37,371 nucleotides of DNA, taken from NCBI GenBank assembly GCA_945949045.1, contig CAMFDG010000020.1:1-37371 (forward strand). Reading direction: 5' to 3'. Numbering within the stretch: the stretch's first letter is position 1; each line of letters starts with the position of its first letter. Positions 5,684-36,523 of this stretch are shown in pieces. The position numbers and the translations under genes were made by a program. The notes under the pieces are model-generated. The model saw only the letters and a program-made list of their open reading frames with translations, was not told the origin of the DNA and did no database searches. This DNA is from an uncultured Lachnospiraceae bacterium (GTDB taxonomy: Bacteria > Bacillota > Clostridia > Lachnospirales > Lachnospiraceae).

Positions 5684-6469
5684 ATGCCAAAACTGATTTT
5701 TTTTGATATAGACGGAACTCTGTGGGACGAGCATATGCAGTTCCCGGAAAGCACGATCCCTTCCTTAAAAAAGCTGCAGGAGAAGGGACATAAGATTTTT
5801 CTCTGCAGCGGCAGGGCCAGAAGCAACATCAAGGATTCCAGACTTCTTTCCATCGGGTTCGACGGTATCGTGGGTGCCTGCGGAAACCACATCGAAGTGG
5901 AGGGCAAGGTGATCTATGAAAATATTCTTTCTCCGGAGCTGACGAGACGGGTGATTGACCTGCTGCGGGAATGCCATATGCCGGTGGTTCTGGAGGGACC
6001 CAGGTACCACTGGATCGAAAAGGATGGTTTTAAGGATGATCCCTTTGTGTTAAGTCTTTTCAAGGCCCTGGAGCAATCTGCGAAAGAACTGACGGAATAT
6101 GAGCCGGATATGCAGATCAATAAGTTTTCCGCGGATGTGCTGCCGGATACGGATTTTGACCGGATCAAGGCCGAGCTGGGAGAGGAGTTTGAGATTCTGG
6201 AGCATGAGGGAAATGTGGTGGAGTTTGTGCCCAAGGGCAGCTCTAAGGCCACGGGAATCCAGCGGGTCTGCAGCTATCTTGGGGTAGACCGGAAGGATAC
6301 CTATGCCGTGGGTGACAGTGTCAACGATCTGGATATGCTGGGCTATGTGGGACACGGAATCGCCATGGGCAATGCCTCAGCGCCTGCGAAGGCGGCGGCT
6401 GAGTACGTGACAACGGATATTCATGAGGACGGAATCATGCGTGCCATGGAACATTACCTGCTGATATAA
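5684..6469 (+). CDS. HAD superfamily hydrolase, Cof type (IIB)
   Basis: A 261-residue cytosolic phosphatase of the haloacid dehalogenase superfamily. Motif I is FFDIDGTLWDE with nucleophile Asp8 and Asp10, motif II is LCSGRA, and motif IV is GDSVNDLDML with the Mg-binding aspartates. The stretch between motifs II and III is a type IIB cap, as in Cof/YbjI-like sugar or nucleotide phosphatases. Length is typical. AGGAG about 8 nt before the ATG supports the start. It is monocistronic, with a promoter just upstream and a terminator at 6511-6551. The physiological substrate cannot be told from sequence. Confidence 0.9.
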   Translation: MPKLIFFDIDGTLWDEHMQFPESTIPSLKKLQEKGHKIFLCSGRARSNIKDSRLLSIGFDGIVGACGNHIEVEGKVIYENILSPELTRRVIDLLRECHMPVVLEGPRYHWIEKDGFKDDPFVLSLFKALEQSAKELTEYEPDMQINKFSADVLPDTDFDRIKAELGEEFEILEHEGNVVEFVPKGSSKATGIQRVCSYLGVDRKDTYAVGDSVNDLDMLGYVGHGIAMGNASAPAKAAAEYVTTDIHEDGIMRAMEHYLLI

Positions 6470-9041: not shown

Positions 9042-9281
9042 CATAACATGATATAAGGGTCAAAAGTCAGAAATCGTTCCTGCTTGCAGGAAAAGAGTTC
9101 TGACTTAATGACCCGCACACACATGAGCACTGTCATCAATCTTTGATTGATGACCCTGTGATTTTCCCTGGAAGATCAACGGATTGCGAATGTGTGTAGA
9201 ATTGCGAGAGTTGCATTGCAACGAAGCAATTTGTATATCAAGTGAGTGGCAAAAGGACTTTTGACACTCACATCATAACAT
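9042..9281. mobile_element. MITE-like element with inverted ends and 8-bp flanking repeats
   Basis: CATAACAT occurs directly at 9042-9049 and 9274-9281. Inside these, imperfect terminal inverted repeats match at 18 of 21 positions (9048-9068 against 9256-9276), including a perfect core GTCAAAAGTC (9059-9068) and GACTTTTGAC (9256-9265). The 224-bp interior has no gene but is full of paired segments: GTCAGAA/TTCTGAC with TTCCTGC/GCAGGAA inside (9066-9104), GTCATCAATC/GATTGATGAC (9132-9154), ATTGC-GTTGC/GCAAC-GCAAT (9201-9230), and ACACACAT/ATGTGTGT (9117-9124 with 9190-9197). This fits a non-autonomous transposable element, although a structured RNA is an alternative. No transposase is in the window. 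Confidence 0.6.
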
Positions 9282-30203: not shown

Positions 30204-31421
30204 ATGCTGGAAATTCGCACACAGGAGACAGATACAAGTGCCAAGATTATTGTTATCGGTGTAGGCGGCGCCGGAAACAATGCTGTAAACCGCATGATTG
30301 ATGAAAATATAGGTGGAGTTGAGTTTATCGGAGTAAATACGGACAAGCAGGCCCTGCAGTTGTGCAAGGCACCATCGCTGATCCAGATCGGTGAGAAGCT
30401 GACCAAGGGACTCGGGGCCGGTGCACAGCCGGAGATCGGTGAGAAGGCTGCTGAGGAGAGTGCGGAGGAGTTAGCTTCCGCGGTGAAGGGGGCCGATATG
30501 GTGTTTGTCACCTGTGGAATGGGTGGCGGTACCGGTACCGGTGCAGCTCCGGTAGTTGCCAAGATTGCGAAGGAACAGGGAATCTTAACGGTTGGTGTTG
30601 TGACAAAGCCTTTCAAATTCGAGGCGAAGAAACGTATGATCAACGCGGTATCCGGTATTGAGAAGCTCAAGGAGAGTGTGGATACCCTGATTGTCATCCC
30701 TAATGACAAGCTTCTTGAGATCGTAGATCGCCGTACCTCTATGCCGGATGCGTTAAAGAAGGCGGATGAGGTTCTGCAGCAGGCTGTACAGGGAATTACA
30801 GACCTGATCAATCTGCCGGCTTTGATCAATCTGGATTTCGCAGATGTTCAGACAGTTATGAAGGACAAGGGTATGGCACACATCGGTATCGGCAGTGCCA
30901 AGGGTGATGAGAAGGCCATTGAGGCAGTGAAGCTTGCGGTCGCATCTCCGCTTCTGGAGACTACGATCAATGGTGCATCCCATGTCATTATCAATATTTC
31001 CGGAGATATTTCTCTTATGGATGCCAACGACGCTGCAAGCTACGTACAGGATCTTGCAGGGGATGATGCCAACATTATCTTCGGTGCCAAGTATGACGAG
31101 ACGATGACCGATGAGGCAACCATTACGGTGATCGCCACAGGTCTTGAGGACGTGAACAAGCAGCAGGCACCGGTTCAGACACCGACCGGCATCGGCGGAC
31201 GCATGGTTTATCCGAACACTGCATCAGCTGTGAGAAATGCCACCACGACAGGAATTGCAAGTTTTGCAAATACAAACCAGACAACAGCCAGACCGGCGAC
31301 TCCAAAGCCGGCACCGACAGCCTCCTCCTATTCCGGGATTCAGAGACCACCGAAGCCGGAGAGCACGGTAAAGCCTGTTGAGATCAATATTCCGGATTTC
31401 CTGAAAAACGCAAAGAGATAG
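30204..31421 (+). CDS. ftsZ: Cell division GTPase FtsZ
   Basis: A 405-residue tubulin-like GTPase that assembles the Z-ring at midcell and, in sporulation, at the polar septum. The N-terminal nucleotide-binding strand is [17 protein letters not shown], the tubulin signature GGGTGTG is at residues 107-113, and the catalytic T7 loop is [12 protein letters not shown] Thr/Pro/Ala-rich linker leads to a C-terminal peptide ([11 protein letters not shown]) of the kind that binds FtsA, SepF or ZapA partners. The ATG at 30204 with AGGAGG 7 nt upstream is chosen over the TTG at 30183. ftsA is not adjacent. Likely transcribed from its own promoter as well as by read-through from divIB. Confidence 0.98.
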
Positions 31422-31429
31422 AAATAGTC

Positions 31430-31436
31430 TGTCGAA
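31430..31436 (+). promoter_or_regulatory. Spo0A box upstream of spoIIGA
   Basis: TGTCGAA at 31430-31436 matches the core 0A box exactly. It lies about 40 bp before the putative -35 element of spoIIGA and just after the ftsZ stop codon. In Bacillus the spoIIG promoter is activated by phosphorylated Spo0A at such boxes. Confidence 0.6.
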
Positions 31437-31459
31437 TCCGGACAATAATTTTTGAATTA

Positions 31460-31522
31460 CAACCTCCTGTTTTTGCCAAAATACAGCGGAACTGTATTTT
31501 ATAATGGCAAAAGCAGGAGGTG
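31460..31522 (+). other. 25-bp inverted repeat burying the spoIIGA ribosome site
   Basis: Bases 31462-31477 (ACCTCCTGTTTTTGCC) pair with 31506-31521, which include AGGAGG, with a single T-G wobble. AAAATACAG (31478-31486) pairs with CTGTATTTT (31492-31500) around CGGAA. The only interruption is a 5-nt bulge, ATAAT (31501-31505). The full Shine-Dalgarno of spoIIGA is inside the right arm. In RNA reading through from ftsZ it would be fully double-stranded. Confidence 0.85.
31473..31505 (+). promoter_or_regulatory. Putative spoIIG promoter with long spacer
   Basis: TTGCCA at 31473-31478 and a consensus TATAAT at 31500-31505 are 21 bp apart. An over-long spacer is a known feature of the Bacillus spoIIG promoter, which needs Spo0A. 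A transcript start near 31512 would omit the left arm of the inverted repeat and leave the ribosome site free. Confidence 0.5.
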
Positions 31523-32344
31523 ATTTTTATTTATGTATTCTATGTGGATGTGTTCCTAGTTCAAAATTTTCTAATGAATCTGATTATTCTATCCCTTACC
31601 TGTGTGTTTTGGAAACGCTCTGTGAAATGGATGAAGCTTCGAATGGTATTTGCCGGGCTGATGGGGGCAGTACTGTCTGCCCTTTGCCTGATCGGATTGA
31701 AAACCTACCGGGGTACGATGGCCGTTATGGCCTTTTTTATTGTGCCGGCGATGCTGATTTTGGCCTTTGGCTGGCCCGGAGGACGGCAGTTTGTGTTTTG
31801 CGTGGGAACGAGCCTGCTGTCGGCGGTTATCTTAAATGGCGTGGCCCTTGCCTTTTACAATCTGACCGGAATCAAAACGATGCATTTATATGTCAGTATT
31901 GTAGTTCTTTTTGCTGCCCGTTTTCTTGTGAAAAGCCTGCTGGTGTCTGTCAGCCAGCAGAAAAGACAGATGAAGGTGACGCTGACCGGGCCCGGAGGCT
32001 GTGTATCCTGTATGGGGCTGTGCGACTCCGGAAATCTGCTCTGTATCCCGGGTACAAAGGAACCGGTACATATTATATCGCCTGAGCTTTTGCGCCGGAT
32101 TGCCGGTCAGGAGGGAACAGAAAGTTTAAAAGAGGAGACGGTTGCTTTCCGGGCCCTTGGAACAGGAGAAGGAAGCCTGAAGGTGTATCAGATTGGGGCG
32201 CTTCAGGTAAGTCAGGGGAAATGCTGCTGTCATATGAAACCGGCCTGGGTAGGCTGTGGAGATGAGGCCCTGATGAAGGGAAAAAGCTATCAGATCATAC
32301 TCAATGCAGCAATTATAGACGCATTGGGTGATTGCCCACCATAA
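31520..32344 (+). CDS. spoIIGA: Sigma-E processing peptidase SpoIIGA
   Basis: A membrane aspartic protease of about 270 residues that removes the pro-sequence of sigma-E in the mother cell after a forespore signal. The N-terminal half has about five membrane helices (YVFYVDVFLVQNFLMNLIIL onward). The C-terminal protease part has the catalytic DSGN motif (LCDSGNLL, Asp169) and a PAWVGCGDE region. The start is ambiguous: GTG 31520 overlaps the Shine-Dalgarno, while ATT 31529, 8 nt after GGAGG, gives (M)YVFYVDVFLVQNF and better spacing. No in-frame ATG lies nearby. sigE follows 24 bp later, as in other endospore formers. Confidence 0.88.
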   Translation: MIFIYVFYVDVFLVQNFLMNLIILSLTCVFWKRSVKWMKLRMVFAGLMGAVLSALCLIGLKTYRGTMAVMAFFIVPAMLILAFGWPGGRQFVFCVGTSLLSAVILNGVALAFYNLTGIKTMHLYVSIVVLFAARFLVKSLLVSVSQQKRQMKVTLTGPGGCVSCMGLCDSGNLLCIPGTKEPVHIISPELLRRIAGQEGTESLKEETVAFRALGTGEGSLKVYQIGALQVSQGKCCCHMKPAWVGCGDEALMKGKSYQIILNAAIIDALGDCPP

Positions 32345-32368: not shown

Positions 32369-33097
32369 ATGTTTGAAATCGTTGAGAAAGTGATACAGAA
32401 GATGCAGATATTTTTTGCCGAGAACGAGGTGTTTTACATAGGGGGAGCAGATGTGCTGCCGCCGCCTTTGGAAAAGGAGGAGGAAAAACAGTGCATCCTT
32501 GCCCTTTCAGAGGAAAGTGAAATGGAGGATTTTTCGCGGGAGGATGCAAGAAAAATGCTGATTGAGCATAATCTGCGGCTGGTGGTTTATCTTGCGAAGA
32601 AATTTGAAAATACCGGAATCTGTGTGGAGGACCTGATCTCTATCGGCACGATCGGACTGATCAAGGGGATCAATACCTTTAAGCCCTCCAAGAAAATTAA
32701 GCTGGCAACCTATGCGTCCCGCTGTATTGAAAACGAGATTTTAATGTATCTTCGCCGCAACAATAAAGTGAAGCTGGAGGTTTCCTTTGATGAACCATTA
32801 AATGTGGACTGGGATGGAAATGAACTGTTGCTTTCCGATATTCTGGGTACCGATGAGGATATCATATACCGCAACATGGAAAATGAGGAGGAGACCAGAC
32901 TTCTTAAGGCTGCGGTAGAAAAGCTGAATCCCAGGGAAAAACAGATCATCTGTTTGAGGTACGGTATCGGGCAGAAGGATGGCAGGGAGATGACCCAGAA
33001 GGAGGTGGCGGATCTGCTTGGGATTTCTCAGTCCTACATATCAAGACTGGAGAAAAAAATTATTATACGGCTGGGAAAGGAAATACGTAAAAATTAG
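32369..33097 (+). CDS. sigE: Sporulation sigma factor sigma-E precursor
   Basis: A 242-residue sigma-70 family factor for the early mother-cell programme. The N-terminal pro-sequence (residues 1 to about 23) ends at [14 protein letters not shown], matching the region where pro-sigma-E is cut beside Tyr in Bacillus. Region 2 ([52 protein letters not shown]) and region 4 ([13 protein letters not shown], with a helix-turn-helix at [19 protein letters not shown]) are intact. Preceded by spoIIGA, its protease, with GAGGAAAG before the ATG. Expected to be co-transcribed from the Spo0A-type promoter. Confidence 0.97.
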
Positions 33098-33189: not shown

Positions 33190-34794
33190 ATGATTTTGGA
33201 GTTTTTGGGGGCGGACCGTGAGGTCACGGGAAGCTGTCACTATGTTTCATTTGCTGATAAGCATTTTCTGGTAGACTGTGGTATGGAGCAGGGGCCGGAC
33301 CTGTACGTGAATCAGGAGATTCCGGTAAATGCTGCAACCATCGATTATGTGTTGATCACACATGCCCACATTGATCATTCGGGCTTACTTCCGCTTTTGT
33401 ACAATCATGGATTTCGGGGGAAAATCTTTGCCACAAAGGCCACCTGTGAGCTCTGTAATATTATGCTTAAAGATTCGGCCCATATTCAGGAATTTGAGGC
33501 GGAATGGAAGAACCGTAAGGCGAAACGTGCCGGAAAGCCGGAGGTGACGCCGCTTTACACCATAGAGGATGCCGAGGGAGTGCTGGGGCACTTTGTGGCC
33601 TGTGATTACAGCGAGAAGGTGGAGATCTGCCAGGGGCTGACCATCCGCTTTATTGATGCAGGGCATCTGCTGGGATCTTCCTCCATTGAGATCTGGATTA
33701 CCGAGGAGGGGGAGACCAGAAAGCTGGTATTCTCCGGTGATATCGGGAATGGAAACCGGCCGCTCATCAAGGACCCGGAATACATAACGGATGCGGATTA
33801 CGTCATTATGGAATCTACCTACGGCAACCGCAATCACGATACACCGCCGGATTACGCGGTGGAGCTGGCGAAGGTGATGAATGCCACCTTCACAAAGGGT
33901 GGAAATCTGGTAATTCCCGCATTCTCTGTGGGACGTACCCAGGAGATGCTTTTTTATATGCGCCGGATTAAGACGGAAAATCTTCTGCCGGAATATCCCG
34001 GCTTTGAAGTTTACATCGACAGTCCGCTGGCAGTGGAGGCCACTACGGTCTTTAACAAAAATGTGGCAGAGTGTTTTGACGGAGAGGCATTAGAGCTTAT
34101 CAATTCCGGCGTGAACCCGATCCAGTTTCCGGGACTTAAGGTGGCGGTCACCAGCGAAGAATCCAAGATGATCAACTTTAATTCCAAGCCGAAGGTTATT
34201 ATTTCGGCCTCCGGAATGTGTGAGGCCGGACGAATCCGGCATCACCTGAAGCACAATCTGTGGAGAACGGATTCTACGATTCTCTTTGTGGGATACCAGG
34301 TACCCGGAACTTTGGGAAATGCCCTGTTAAACGGCGTAGACAAGGTAAAGCTGTTTGGCGAGGAAATCGAGGTAAAAGCCTCCATTGTAAACCTGCCGGG
34401 AATCAGCGGCCATGCGGACAGAGATCATCTGACGAAATGGATCTCGGCTTTTACAACACCGCCGAAGAAGGTCTTCGTGGTACACGGCGAGGAGAATACT
34501 GCTGTTAGCTTTGCAGAACATGTGAAGGCTGATGTGGGCTTTGATGCGGTGGCACCCTATAGCGGAGATTCTTATGATCTTCTCACCGGAAAGAAGCTTG
34601 CCGAGGGCAGCAGACAGCTGGTGGAAAAGAAGGAGAAGAAGCTGTATAAAGCCAGCTCCGGTGTATTTGACCGCCTTGTTATTGCAGGCGAGCGCCTGAT
34701 GGCGGTCATTCGAAAATGCCAGGGTATGGCTAACAAGGATTTAGCAAAGTTTGCGGACCAGATCAATTCCCTCTGTGACAAGTGGGATCGATAA
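33190..34794 (+). CDS. MBL-fold beta-CASP RNA metallo-hydrolase
   Basis: A 534-residue metallo-beta-lactamase-fold protein with a beta-CASP insert and RNA-specificity domain. Zinc ligands are HAHIDH (His58, His60, Asp62, His63), DAGHLLGSS and FSGDIGNGNR. The beta-CASP motifs include the Asp/Glu motif A (VIMESTYGNR), the His motif B (SASGMCEAGRIRHHL) and the His motif C (GISGHADRDHL). The family acts as RNA nucleases (CPSF-like/YsaH type) rather than lactamases. A C-terminal extension of about 60 residues (KLYKASSGVFDRLVIAGER) is less conserved. GAAGGGG lies before the ATG. Single gene with its own promoter and terminator. It splits sigE from sigG, which are adjacent in Bacillus. Exact substrate unknown. 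Confidence 0.93.
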   Translation: MILEFLGADREVTGSCHYVSFADKHFLVDCGMEQGPDLYVNQEIPVNAATIDYVLITHAHIDHSGLLPLLYNHGFRGKIFATKATCELCNIMLKDSAHIQEFEAEWKNRKAKRAGKPEVTPLYTIEDAEGVLGHFVACDYSEKVEICQGLTIRFIDAGHLLGSSSIEIWITEEGETRKLVFSGDIGNGNRPLIKDPEYITDADYVIMESTYGNRNHDTPPDYAVELAKVMNATFTKGGNLVIPAFSVGRTQEMLFYMRRIKTENLLPEYPGFEVYIDSPLAVEATTVFNKNVAECFDGEALELINSGVNPIQFPGLKVAVTSEESKMINFNSKPKVIISASGMCEAGRIRHHLKHNLWRTDSTILFVGYQVPGTLGNALLNGVDKVKLFGEEIEVKASIVNLPGISGHADRDHLTKWISAFTTPPKKVFVVHGEENTAVSFAEHVKADVGFDAVAPYSGDSYDLLTGKKLAEGSRQLVEKKEKKLYKASSGVFDRLVIAGERLMAVIRKCQGMANKDLAKFADQINSLCDKWDR

Positions 34795-35549: not shown

Positions 35550-36344
35550 TCAGCGGGAACCGGTCGAGTCATTTAGGTATTGGTACATACTTTTCAAAGC
35601 ATTTTTCTCCAGCCGTGACACCTGGGCCTGAGAGATGTGAATCTCATCCGCCACCTCCACCTGGGTCTTCCCTTCGAAAAAGCGCAGTCTGATGATGCGC
35701 TCATCCCGCTCATCCAGACGGGAAAGGGCGTCGCTTAAGGAGATATCCTCCACCCAGTTTTCCTCCTTATTTTTCTTGTCGGAGATCTGGTCCATGACAT
35801 AGAGGGTGTCGCCACCGTCGGTGTAGACGGGATCAAAGAGTGAGAGGGGTGTCTGGATGGCATCTAAGGCATAGACGATGTCCTCTTTGGGAATGCCGCT
35901 TTCTACAGAGATTTCGTCCAGAGTAGGCTCCTTCTGCTGGGTGGCAGCCAGATGCTCTTTGGCCTGCATGGCCTTGTAGGCGATGTCCCGAAGGGAGCGG
36001 GGGATGCGGTAACTGCTGTTGTCCCGCAAATACCGGCGGATTTCGCCGATGATCATAGGTACCGCGTAGGTACTGAATTTTACGCCTACCGTCACATCGA
36101 AATTATCGATGGCTTTCATCAGACCGATACAGCCAATCTGAAACAGGTCATCTACATTCTCGTTGTGATTATTAAAACGGCGGATGACAGACAGGACAAG
36201 CCTTAAATTGCCCTCAATGTAGGTCTCCCGGGCTTTTTTATCGCCGGCGTGGATACGTTCAAATAATGCCTCCTTTTCTTCCTCCTTTAAGATGGGAAGC
36301 TTTGCTGTGTTGACACCGCAGATTTCAACTTTATAAGAAGACAT
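35550..36344 (-). CDS. sigG: Sporulation forespore sigma factor sigma-G
   Basis: A 264-residue sigma-70 family factor for the late forespore programme. It begins MSSYKVEICGVNTAKLPIL, very close to other SigG proteins (KVEICGVDTSKLPVL). Region 2 is GNLRLVLSVIRRFNNHNENVDDL, QIGCIGLMKAIDNFDV and KFSTYAVPMIIGEIRRYLRD. Region 3 is IPRSLRDIAYKAMQAKEHL, and region 4 has DERIIRLRFFEGKTQVEVAD followed by ISQAQVSRLEK. The ATG at 36344 is used because GGAGG lies 8 nt upstream; the in-frame GTG at 36359 is the first base after that site. It is inverted relative to spoIIGA-sigE. Its end overlaps a CCGGTTC/GAACCGG stem (35543-35563) that may help termination. Confidence 0.97.
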   Translation of the reverse strand: MSSYKVEICGVNTAKLPILKEEEKEALFERIHAGDKKARETYIEGNLRLVLSVIRRFNNHNENVDDLFQIGCIGLMKAIDNFDVTVGVKFSTYAVPMIIGEIRRYLRDNSSYRIPRSLRDIAYKAMQAKEHLAATQQKEPTLDEISVESGIPKEDIVYALDAIQTPLSLFDPVYTDGGDTLYVMDQISDKKNKEENWVEDISLSDALSRLDERDERIIRLRFFEGKTQVEVADEIHISQAQVSRLEKNALKSMYQYLNDSTGSR

Positions 36345-36378
36345 TACCTTTTCCTCCACAATACGAATTTCTTAGTAA

Positions 36379-36409: not shown

Positions 36410-36523
36410 GTTCATGTTATACTTTTTTCTGTAATACGCACCGGAATGTCCATGCTGGATATTTCTGGGAAAAGGACATAGGGGATGGAAAGTATCAATG
36501 AAATGGAAAAGGAGGGTGCGCTT

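Follow-up and report, generated by a model that had tools for sequence, protein, structure and literature searches.

SpoIIGA activates sigma-E, so its stray synthesis in growing cells would be risky. The stretch of DNA analysed here (37,371 nucleotides from an uncultured Lachnospiraceae bacterium, hereafter the window) raises the question of how spoIIGA could be shielded from transcription arriving from ftsZ, the upstream gene, whose transcript would run into a long hairpin. We propose, on the strength of sequence comparison, that the palindrome encoding this hairpin acts as an insulator between the vegetative ftsZ transcript and spoIIGA and is bypassed by the spoIIG promoter, a reading to which we give a probability of about two in three. 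In addition, spoIIGA itself seems to begin with a very rare and weak start codon.

The features of the locus are collected in Table 1. Pfam domains around the palindrome identify FtsZ, SpoIIGA and two sigma factors; the gene following spoIIGA is taken to be sigE from its position and from the usual annotation. Beyond a metallo-hydrolase gene lies a sigma factor gene (35550-36359, minus strand), presumably sigG-like, and since it is on the strand opposite to spoIIGA-sigE, read-through from spoIIG to sigG as in B. subtilis is impossible here. The sole Rfam family over threshold in the window is a Clostridiales-1 RNA (RF01699, 99.2 bits) at 9049-9240 on the plus strand, and the same scan placed no Rfam family at gathering score over the palindrome.

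Table 1. Positions of genes and of predicted regulatory elements at the ftsZ-spoIIGA locus, in window coordinates
Feature	Position	Strand	Basis and remarks
ftsZ	30204..31421	+	Pfam domains Tubulin and FtsZ_C in the translation from 30204; stop codon 31419-31421
TGTCGAA, Spo0A (0A) box	31430..31436	+	Sequence; 43 bp upstream of the -35, start to start
Base stem, left arm	31462..31478	+	Fold and column identity; the last six bases are the -35, TTGCCA (31473-31478)
Upper stem-loop in promoter spacer	31479..31499	+	Fold; 8 pairs, loop 31487-31491; sequence varies between species
-10, TATAAT	31500..31505	+	Sits in the hairpin bulge; invariant in 12/12 hairpin loci
Base stem, right arm	31505..31521	+	Fold and conservation; holds the Shine-Dalgarno (SD) AGGAGG, 31515-31520
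Predicted transcription start	31511..31513	+	About 7 nt after the -10; from promoter geometry
T run (GA, then TTTTT) directly behind stem	31524..31528	+	U-tract of a possible intrinsic terminator
spoIIGA (pro-sigma-E protease)	31529..32344	+	Pfam Peptidase_U4/SpoIIGA, 2.6e-39; ATT start by SD spacing and conservation
sigE (presumed), downstream in operon	32369..33097	+	Pfam Sigma70_r2 and Sigma70_r4
beta-CASP/RMMBL metallo-hydrolase gene	33190-34794		Between spoIIGA-sigE and the sigG-like gene

Palindrome, promoter and their distribution

The inverted repeat at 31462-31521 folds as RNA into 25 pairs in two helices, a base stem of 17 pairs (31462-31478 with 31505-31521) and an upper stem of 8 pairs (31479-31486 with 31492-31499) closed by a 5-nt loop, with a 5-nt bulge (31500-31504) between them that is most of the -10 hexamer. 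An earlier interpretation of this DNA from its letters alone (the sequence-only reading) had described a 25-bp repeat that buries the AGGAGG of spoIIGA, and the fold returned the same coordinates and pairing. Its other elements are likewise in place, namely TTGCCA and TATAAT inside the repeat at 21-bp spacing (31473-31478 and 31500-31505), TGTCGAA upstream (31430-31436) and the run GATTTTTATTT at the hairpin. The predicted energy of the segment 31430-31560 is -42.3 kcal/mol, compared with -23.5 +/- 3.3 kcal/mol for shuffled sequences (z -5.7), none of 200 shuffles being as good. A survey of the 158 GGAGG sites on both strands of the window, which considered helices with sequence up to 150 nt upstream, gave the spoIIGA SD site the longest unbroken helix, with 17 pairs; the runners-up had 14 and 12. 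The first of these, at position 5992, was set aside, being inside a coding gene in a region that folds little better than shuffles (z -0.96), and the other is at position 36511.

The geometry of the promoter elements is conserved. The spacing between -35 and -10 is 21 bp in all 12 loci that carry the hairpin, and also in 29 of the 32 non-hairpin relatives with a recognised promoter (22 bp in the other 3); the search admitted only spacings of 20-22 bp with at most two mismatches in all, and 10 non-hairpin loci gave no call. An exact 0A box lies 43 bp upstream of the -35 in 7 hairpin loci, the window included, and is not at that position in the other 5; with one mismatch allowed, it occupies this position in 16 of the 32 non-hairpin relatives. 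A box 33 bp from the -35 occurs in one of the 12 hairpin loci and in 4 of the 32 others, and in several relatives another 0A-like motif follows the first box position by about 10 bp, as if in tandem (31430-31446 in the window). A generic promoter scan, limited to spacers of 16-18 bp, instead pairs TTGCCA with TATTTT at 31495-31500; the pair that is conserved among relatives is the 21-bp one, TTGCCA/TATAAT. Together, these data make a good phylogenetic case for a Spo0A-type spoIIG promoter, which would start RNA between the two arms of the palindrome, as predicted from the conserved -35/-10 geometry and the 0A box. The resemblance to the Bacillus spoIIG promoter, suggested previously for this site, is thereby strengthened. 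The B. subtilis promoter, served by Spo0A and sigma-A, likewise has a 0A box upstream, a wide -35/-10 spacing (22 bp) and a spoIIGA-sigE operon behind it, whereas the promoter described here has 21-bp spacing, a weak -35 (TTGCCA), a predicted leader of only about 17 nt and a hairpin laid over it. Binding of Spo0A, which we infer for this locus, has a counterpart in C. difficile, where the protein binds DNA upstream of spoIIGA with low affinity (PMC3485338).

The comparison set comprised 62 genomes of the genus, probably GTDB Agathobacter including Roseburia, of which 55 had a SpoIIGA match. Nine relatives are named, including Roseburia faecis M72 and two Agathobacter MAGs, and other labels read uncultured Lachnospiraceae, Blautia and Muribaculaceae. 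The hairpin is carried by 12 of the 55 loci (the window, L002-L007 and L032-L036); L035 and L036 are the same within it, which leaves 11 distinct hairpins, and L005 is identical around the hairpin to the R. faecis stretch L080. In a tree built from those SpoIIGA proteins that exceed 180 residues (43 of the 54 whose start region was placed), the 12 loci form one clade, which includes Roseburia faecis, with support 100/99. A covariance model of the element gave strong hits (81-100 bits) in exactly 12 of the 62 genus genomes, all at spoIIGA. In a family sample of 397 genomes, scored under strict filters, it gave none outside the genome of the window; 10 of the 396 others had weak matches (24-36 bits). 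Occurring in only 12 of the 55 genus genomes with spoIIGA, the hairpin is no general feature of the genus or family. The element is single-copy in its own genome, and on this, with the restriction of strong model hits to spoIIGA, we reject a repeat family or a mobile element.

Comparison of the repeat across Lachnospiraceae had been proposed as a check by the sequence-only reading, for which loss of the left arm in relatives would have been the adverse outcome. The left arm is in fact kept, as are the SD, the -10 and the 21-bp spacing, in all 12 loci of the clade, and in their alignment its mean column identity is 0.95, against 0.73 in the 14 columns just upstream. In the base stem, 95.9% of cells are paired, compared with 46-67% when the register is slid by 1-3, and only one of 500 shuffles reached this percentage. 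Three base-stem pairs have changes on both sides, and a measure of further pair types was not above shuffles (483 of 500 as high). Covariation thus rests on few pairs, since 8 of the 17 are invariant and the right arm is constrained by the SD and the left by the -35. The innermost pair was counted on a gap column with three unpaired cells; placed on the last -10 base, it is A-U in 12/12. The upper stem has drifted in sequence and re-pairs, reaching p of 0.01 or below against its own shuffles in 8 of the 12 loci, and is not clearly above shuffles in L002, L003, L006 and L034 (p 0.05-0.16).

The start codon of spoIIGA

In the window, the in-frame codon 8 nt after the SD is the ATT at 31529. The ATG at 31533 lies in another reading frame, and the GTG at 31520, although in frame, overlaps the SD by its first base; neither makes a good start. 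The gene and its SD had been correctly named in the sequence-only reading, which missed that no canonical start codon of this gene is usable. Of the 55 genus loci, 54 allowed the N-terminus to be placed; L094 was dropped because the placing motif was not found. In most loci, the conserved part of SpoIIGA starts with the codon 8-9 nt behind the SD, and codon-like periodicity of variation starts at this SD-spaced codon, a pattern that the placing motif itself fixed in part. The codon is ATT in 19 loci, ATA in 15, ATC in 12, ACA in 3, and ACC, GAT, GAA, CGG and TTG in one each; it is thus AUU, AUA or AUC (AUH) in 46/54 and ATG in 0/54. On a separate tree of 36 rows, selected for having AT as the first two bases, the third base requires at least 11 changes and is G in no row, which makes a rough argument for avoidance of AUG.

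Other start candidates are present in some of these genes. An in-frame GTG at -3, lying inside the SD, occurs in 24/54, 22 of them AUH; L027 has an ATG at -2 besides it, and of the 21 remaining AUH loci, 12 have no SD match for the GTG and 9 have an SD-like match of 4-6 nt upstream. L009 has a GTG at -7, L008, L010 and L043 have an ATG at -1, and L020, L029 and L090 have further, more distant candidates. If the AUH triplet were an ordinary isoleucine codon, translation would begin upstream, at the GTG (31520 in the window), or by some unusual route such as frameshifting from the out-of-frame ATG. The frequency of the -3 GTG and the upstream SD-like matches in 9 of 21 loci are in line with such a start, and a third base that is T, A or C and never G is what an isoleucine codon would show. 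Against this stand the 23 of 54 genes in which an AUH codon is preceded by no ATG, GTG or TTG back to the upstream in-frame stop; in 21 of them only two codons intervene, and the stop, TGA, is mostly part of the SD. The position of the GTG within the SD, and its want of an SD match in 12 of 21 loci, also speak against it. Frameshifting from the ATG at 31533 is ruled out by the absence of this ATG in L006, L009, L013 and L018, among others. We regard the isoleucine-codon explanation as decidedly unlikely, and weak initiation at AUH would be the better account of these genes.

Elsewhere in the family, 90 loci drawn from the listed matches (262 genomes had a match) were called as GTG in 34, TTG in 23, ATG in 17 and noncanonical in 8 (ATT 4, ACG 2, GTT 2), with 8 unresolved. 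Weak starts are thus general, and AUH as the rule is specific, in this sample, to the genus. Three loci of other family genera (L066, L172 and L176) combine an SD-spaced ATT with the lack of any canonical start served by an SD; further calls include ATT in L071 and ACG in L059 and L131. As a control, infC, whose AUU start is a known noncanonical start, was sought in 18 chosen relatives, the window genome's own copy being cut by a contig end, and was found in 17, all with ATT at SD spacing. An ATG follows four codons after the ATT in 16 of the 17 (L189 is the one that lacks it), so that the ATT reading there rests on SD spacing, L189 and known infC biology. A similar control with sigE was set aside, since start choice was unreliable and some canonical start exists in 41/41 rows, which says little. 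AUU can initiate translation in clostridia, as shown by protein secretion from AUU-started genes in engineered C. sporogenes and C. butyricum (PMC11040787).

A candidate insulator and competing explanations

Terminators and ribosome access both bear on how the palindrome might act. Among the 31 non-hairpin loci whose ftsZ stop could be identified, 28 have a hairpin resembling a terminator that ends 55 nt or more upstream of the start; of these hairpins, 21 precede the predicted -35 and one (L012) overlaps it, and the other 6 are at loci with no promoter call. Of the remaining three, L018 and L040 show a hairpin by eye in folds that the script did not accept, and L020 has none. In L012, the ftsZ-side stem ends at -66 and the -35 lies at -87 from the start, with the 0A box still at 43 bp; this arrangement is perhaps an intermediate or an independent fusion of terminator and promoter. 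In the hairpin loci, the terminator scans found no comparable separate terminator apart from weak candidates, namely at least three upstream hairpin/T-run candidates in L006, two in L034, and a 5-pair site at 31427-31443 in the window. The spoIIGA hairpin itself has the sequence features of an intrinsic terminator, a stable stem with a U-rich run within 0-2 nt, and is reported by the scan in at least 11 of the 12 loci, that of L006 not being among the matches listed there; a simpler scan, limited to loops of 3-8, misses it. The 8 nt before the start contain 4-6 T in the 12 hairpin loci (6 in 11 of them) against 0-5 in the other 42 (Mann-Whitney p 1e-7, uncorrected for relatedness). Since most of the clade lacks a separate ftsZ terminator and a U-run follows the stem, termination is at least as likely as a ribosome block, in keeping with the earlier suggestion that the hairpin may also terminate ftsZ. 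We read the palindrome as an ftsZ terminator that would have moved onto the SD and promoter and become fused with the spoIIG promoter. In Bacillus mycoides, one study describes two predicted terminators that close the cluster after ftsZ, a spoIIGA RNA that begins in the spacer, a second 5' end inside the end of ftsZ in one of two strains, and no RNA found to span the whole of ftsZ and spoIIGA (PMC3762067).

The predicted cost of opening the SD in read-through RNA is 13.4-20.0 kcal/mol in all 12 hairpin loci, compared with 1.7-7.5 kcal/mol in their promoter-started RNA and 0.1-9.8 kcal/mol in the read-through RNA of the 42 non-hairpin relatives. Correspondingly, the predicted probability that GGAGG is unpaired is below 0.001 in read-through RNA (12/12) and 0.014-0.78 in promoter-started RNA, where the SD is mostly paired even so in L005 (0.014) and L034 (0.039). 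The sequence-only reading held that RNA starting near 31512 escapes the hairpin; the left arm is indeed absent from such RNA and opening is predicted to be much cheaper, but the SD of the window is unpaired with a probability of just 0.27. Among the non-hairpin relatives, L037, L038 and L042 have read-through/promoter costs of 8.5/2.3, 8.1/2.0 and 9.8/1.3 kcal/mol, perhaps weaker independent locks, and the leader of L020 folds into another long structure around the SD.

The insulator that we propose would work as follows. In RNA reading through from ftsZ, the 17-bp stem would form with the U-run behind it and the polymerase would probably terminate there, while any RNA continuing past the stem would carry a buried SD and be poorly translated. 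Phosphorylated Spo0A and the vegetative sigma factor would start RNA near 31512, inside the right arm, so that the left arm would be missing, no hairpin could form, the SD would be free and SpoIIGA would be made. Starting at AUU, or in most of the genus at one of AUU, AUA and AUC, would hold the yield of SpoIIGA down further. A broader version, in which a genus-wide AUH brake, never AUG, lets IF3 police SpoIIGA synthesis and ties entry into sporulation to the state of translation, with one clade adding the terminator/promoter/SD hairpin as a second brake, is possible but doubtful.

Part of the same evidence would also fit a simpler function, in which hairpin and T run are merely the ftsZ terminator moved into the promoter region and burial of the SD is a side effect. 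The terminator-like hairpins after ftsZ in 28 of the 31 non-hairpin loci, mostly without a separate counterpart in the hairpin clade, favour this explanation, as do the T run that replaces the T-poor spacer of relatives and the situation in B. mycoides, with its two predicted terminators and no spanning RNA found (PMC3762067). We nevertheless consider it unlikely: a separate terminator would fit into the roughly 40 nt that separate the left arm from the ftsZ stop, yet the stem lies on the SD in 12/12; the T run is set off from the stem by 2 nt, and L034 keeps the stem despite a poor U-tract (TGATCTTAT). The palindrome could instead be bound as DNA, as an operator or a second Spo0A site overlapping the -35, with no RNA hairpin involved; the left arm does overlap the -35, the -35 of relatives (TTTTGACAAAA) reads as a 0A-like box on the other strand, and a palindromic operator would likewise give paired changes. 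This is very unlikely. The non-Watson-Crick cells in the first 16 stem pairs are 19 U-G (9 in one column) and 5 mismatches (3 C-A, 2 A-A), each U-G cell would turn into an A-C mismatch if the opposite strand were transcribed, and the model scores about 81-100 bits on the plus strand and about 27-45 on the minus strand. Moreover, the upper stem re-pairs with different sequence in several species, and a DNA-binding site would give no reason for finding the SD in one arm and its complement in the other. That the palindrome is a functionless product of chance has next to no probability; although 8 of the 17 stem pairs are invariant and hence yield no covariation evidence, the fold energy (z -5.7), the conserved left arm and the persistence of the stem across 12 loci all contradict it, the SpoIIGA proteins of these loci being only 42-53% identical to that of the window (81% in one).

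If the insulator reading is true, one element of about 60 bp would solve the problem of insulation by serving as terminator, ribosome lock and promoter at once. Natural variants, with 12 loci that have the hairpin and 42 relatives that do not, make the lock directly testable. AUH starts would place a sporulation gene on the short list of genes with noncanonical starts, and would leave gene-calling programs that accept only ATG, GTG and TTG prone to put the spoIIGA start in the wrong place in a genus common in the human gut.

Relation to known systems

A lock of this kind has been proposed for sigG (spoIIIG) of B. subtilis, where a hairpin of 20 or more pairs would keep read-through RNA from being translated, is unable to form when the gene's own promoter starts the RNA, and is joined by a weak GTG start that adds damping (PMC5942855). 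On the reading proposed here, both systems would combine a read-through lock bypassed by the gene's own promoter with a weak start; sigG in B. subtilis directly follows the spoIIG operon. That lock guards sigG against read-through from the sporulation promoter spoIIG and has a GTG start, whereas the one proposed here would guard spoIIGA against vegetative read-through from ftsZ, with a hairpin that is also terminator-like and an AUH start. In phage T4, the SD and/or start codon of genes e, soc, 49 and I-TevI is buried in a helix; in gene e the helix forms in the long early RNA and cuts lysozyme synthesis 100-fold, while RNA from two late promoters located immediately before the ribosome site lacks the 5' portion (PMC3014915). 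The T4 promoters are viral late promoters, and the accessible text mentions no terminator role (PMC3014915), while the lock described here would be opened by a Spo0A-type cellular promoter whose -35 lies in one arm. From B. subtilis sigG and T4 gene e, the principle of the lock is already known.

What would be new is the site of the proposed lock at spoIIGA, the fusion of terminator and promoter, and the AUH starts. The open-licence literature, whose silence is weak evidence of absence, yielded no instance of a lock at spoIIGA, of an ftsZ terminator/Spo0A promoter fusion or of AUH starts of spoIIGA, no report on spoIIGA in Roseburia, and none relevant on noncanonical starts in Lachnospiraceae. 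For the start of spoIIGA, sigR of Streptomyces is the nearest natural precedent. Its annotated GTG lies inside AGGAGGTG, and the real start is a GTC repressed by IF3 (PMC5472188). In both cases, a noncanonical start follows AGGAGGTG with an internal GTG, and the gene controls a sigma-factor pathway; the spoIIGA genes differ in having AUU, AUA or AUC rather than GUC, and in encoding a protease that activates a sigma factor.
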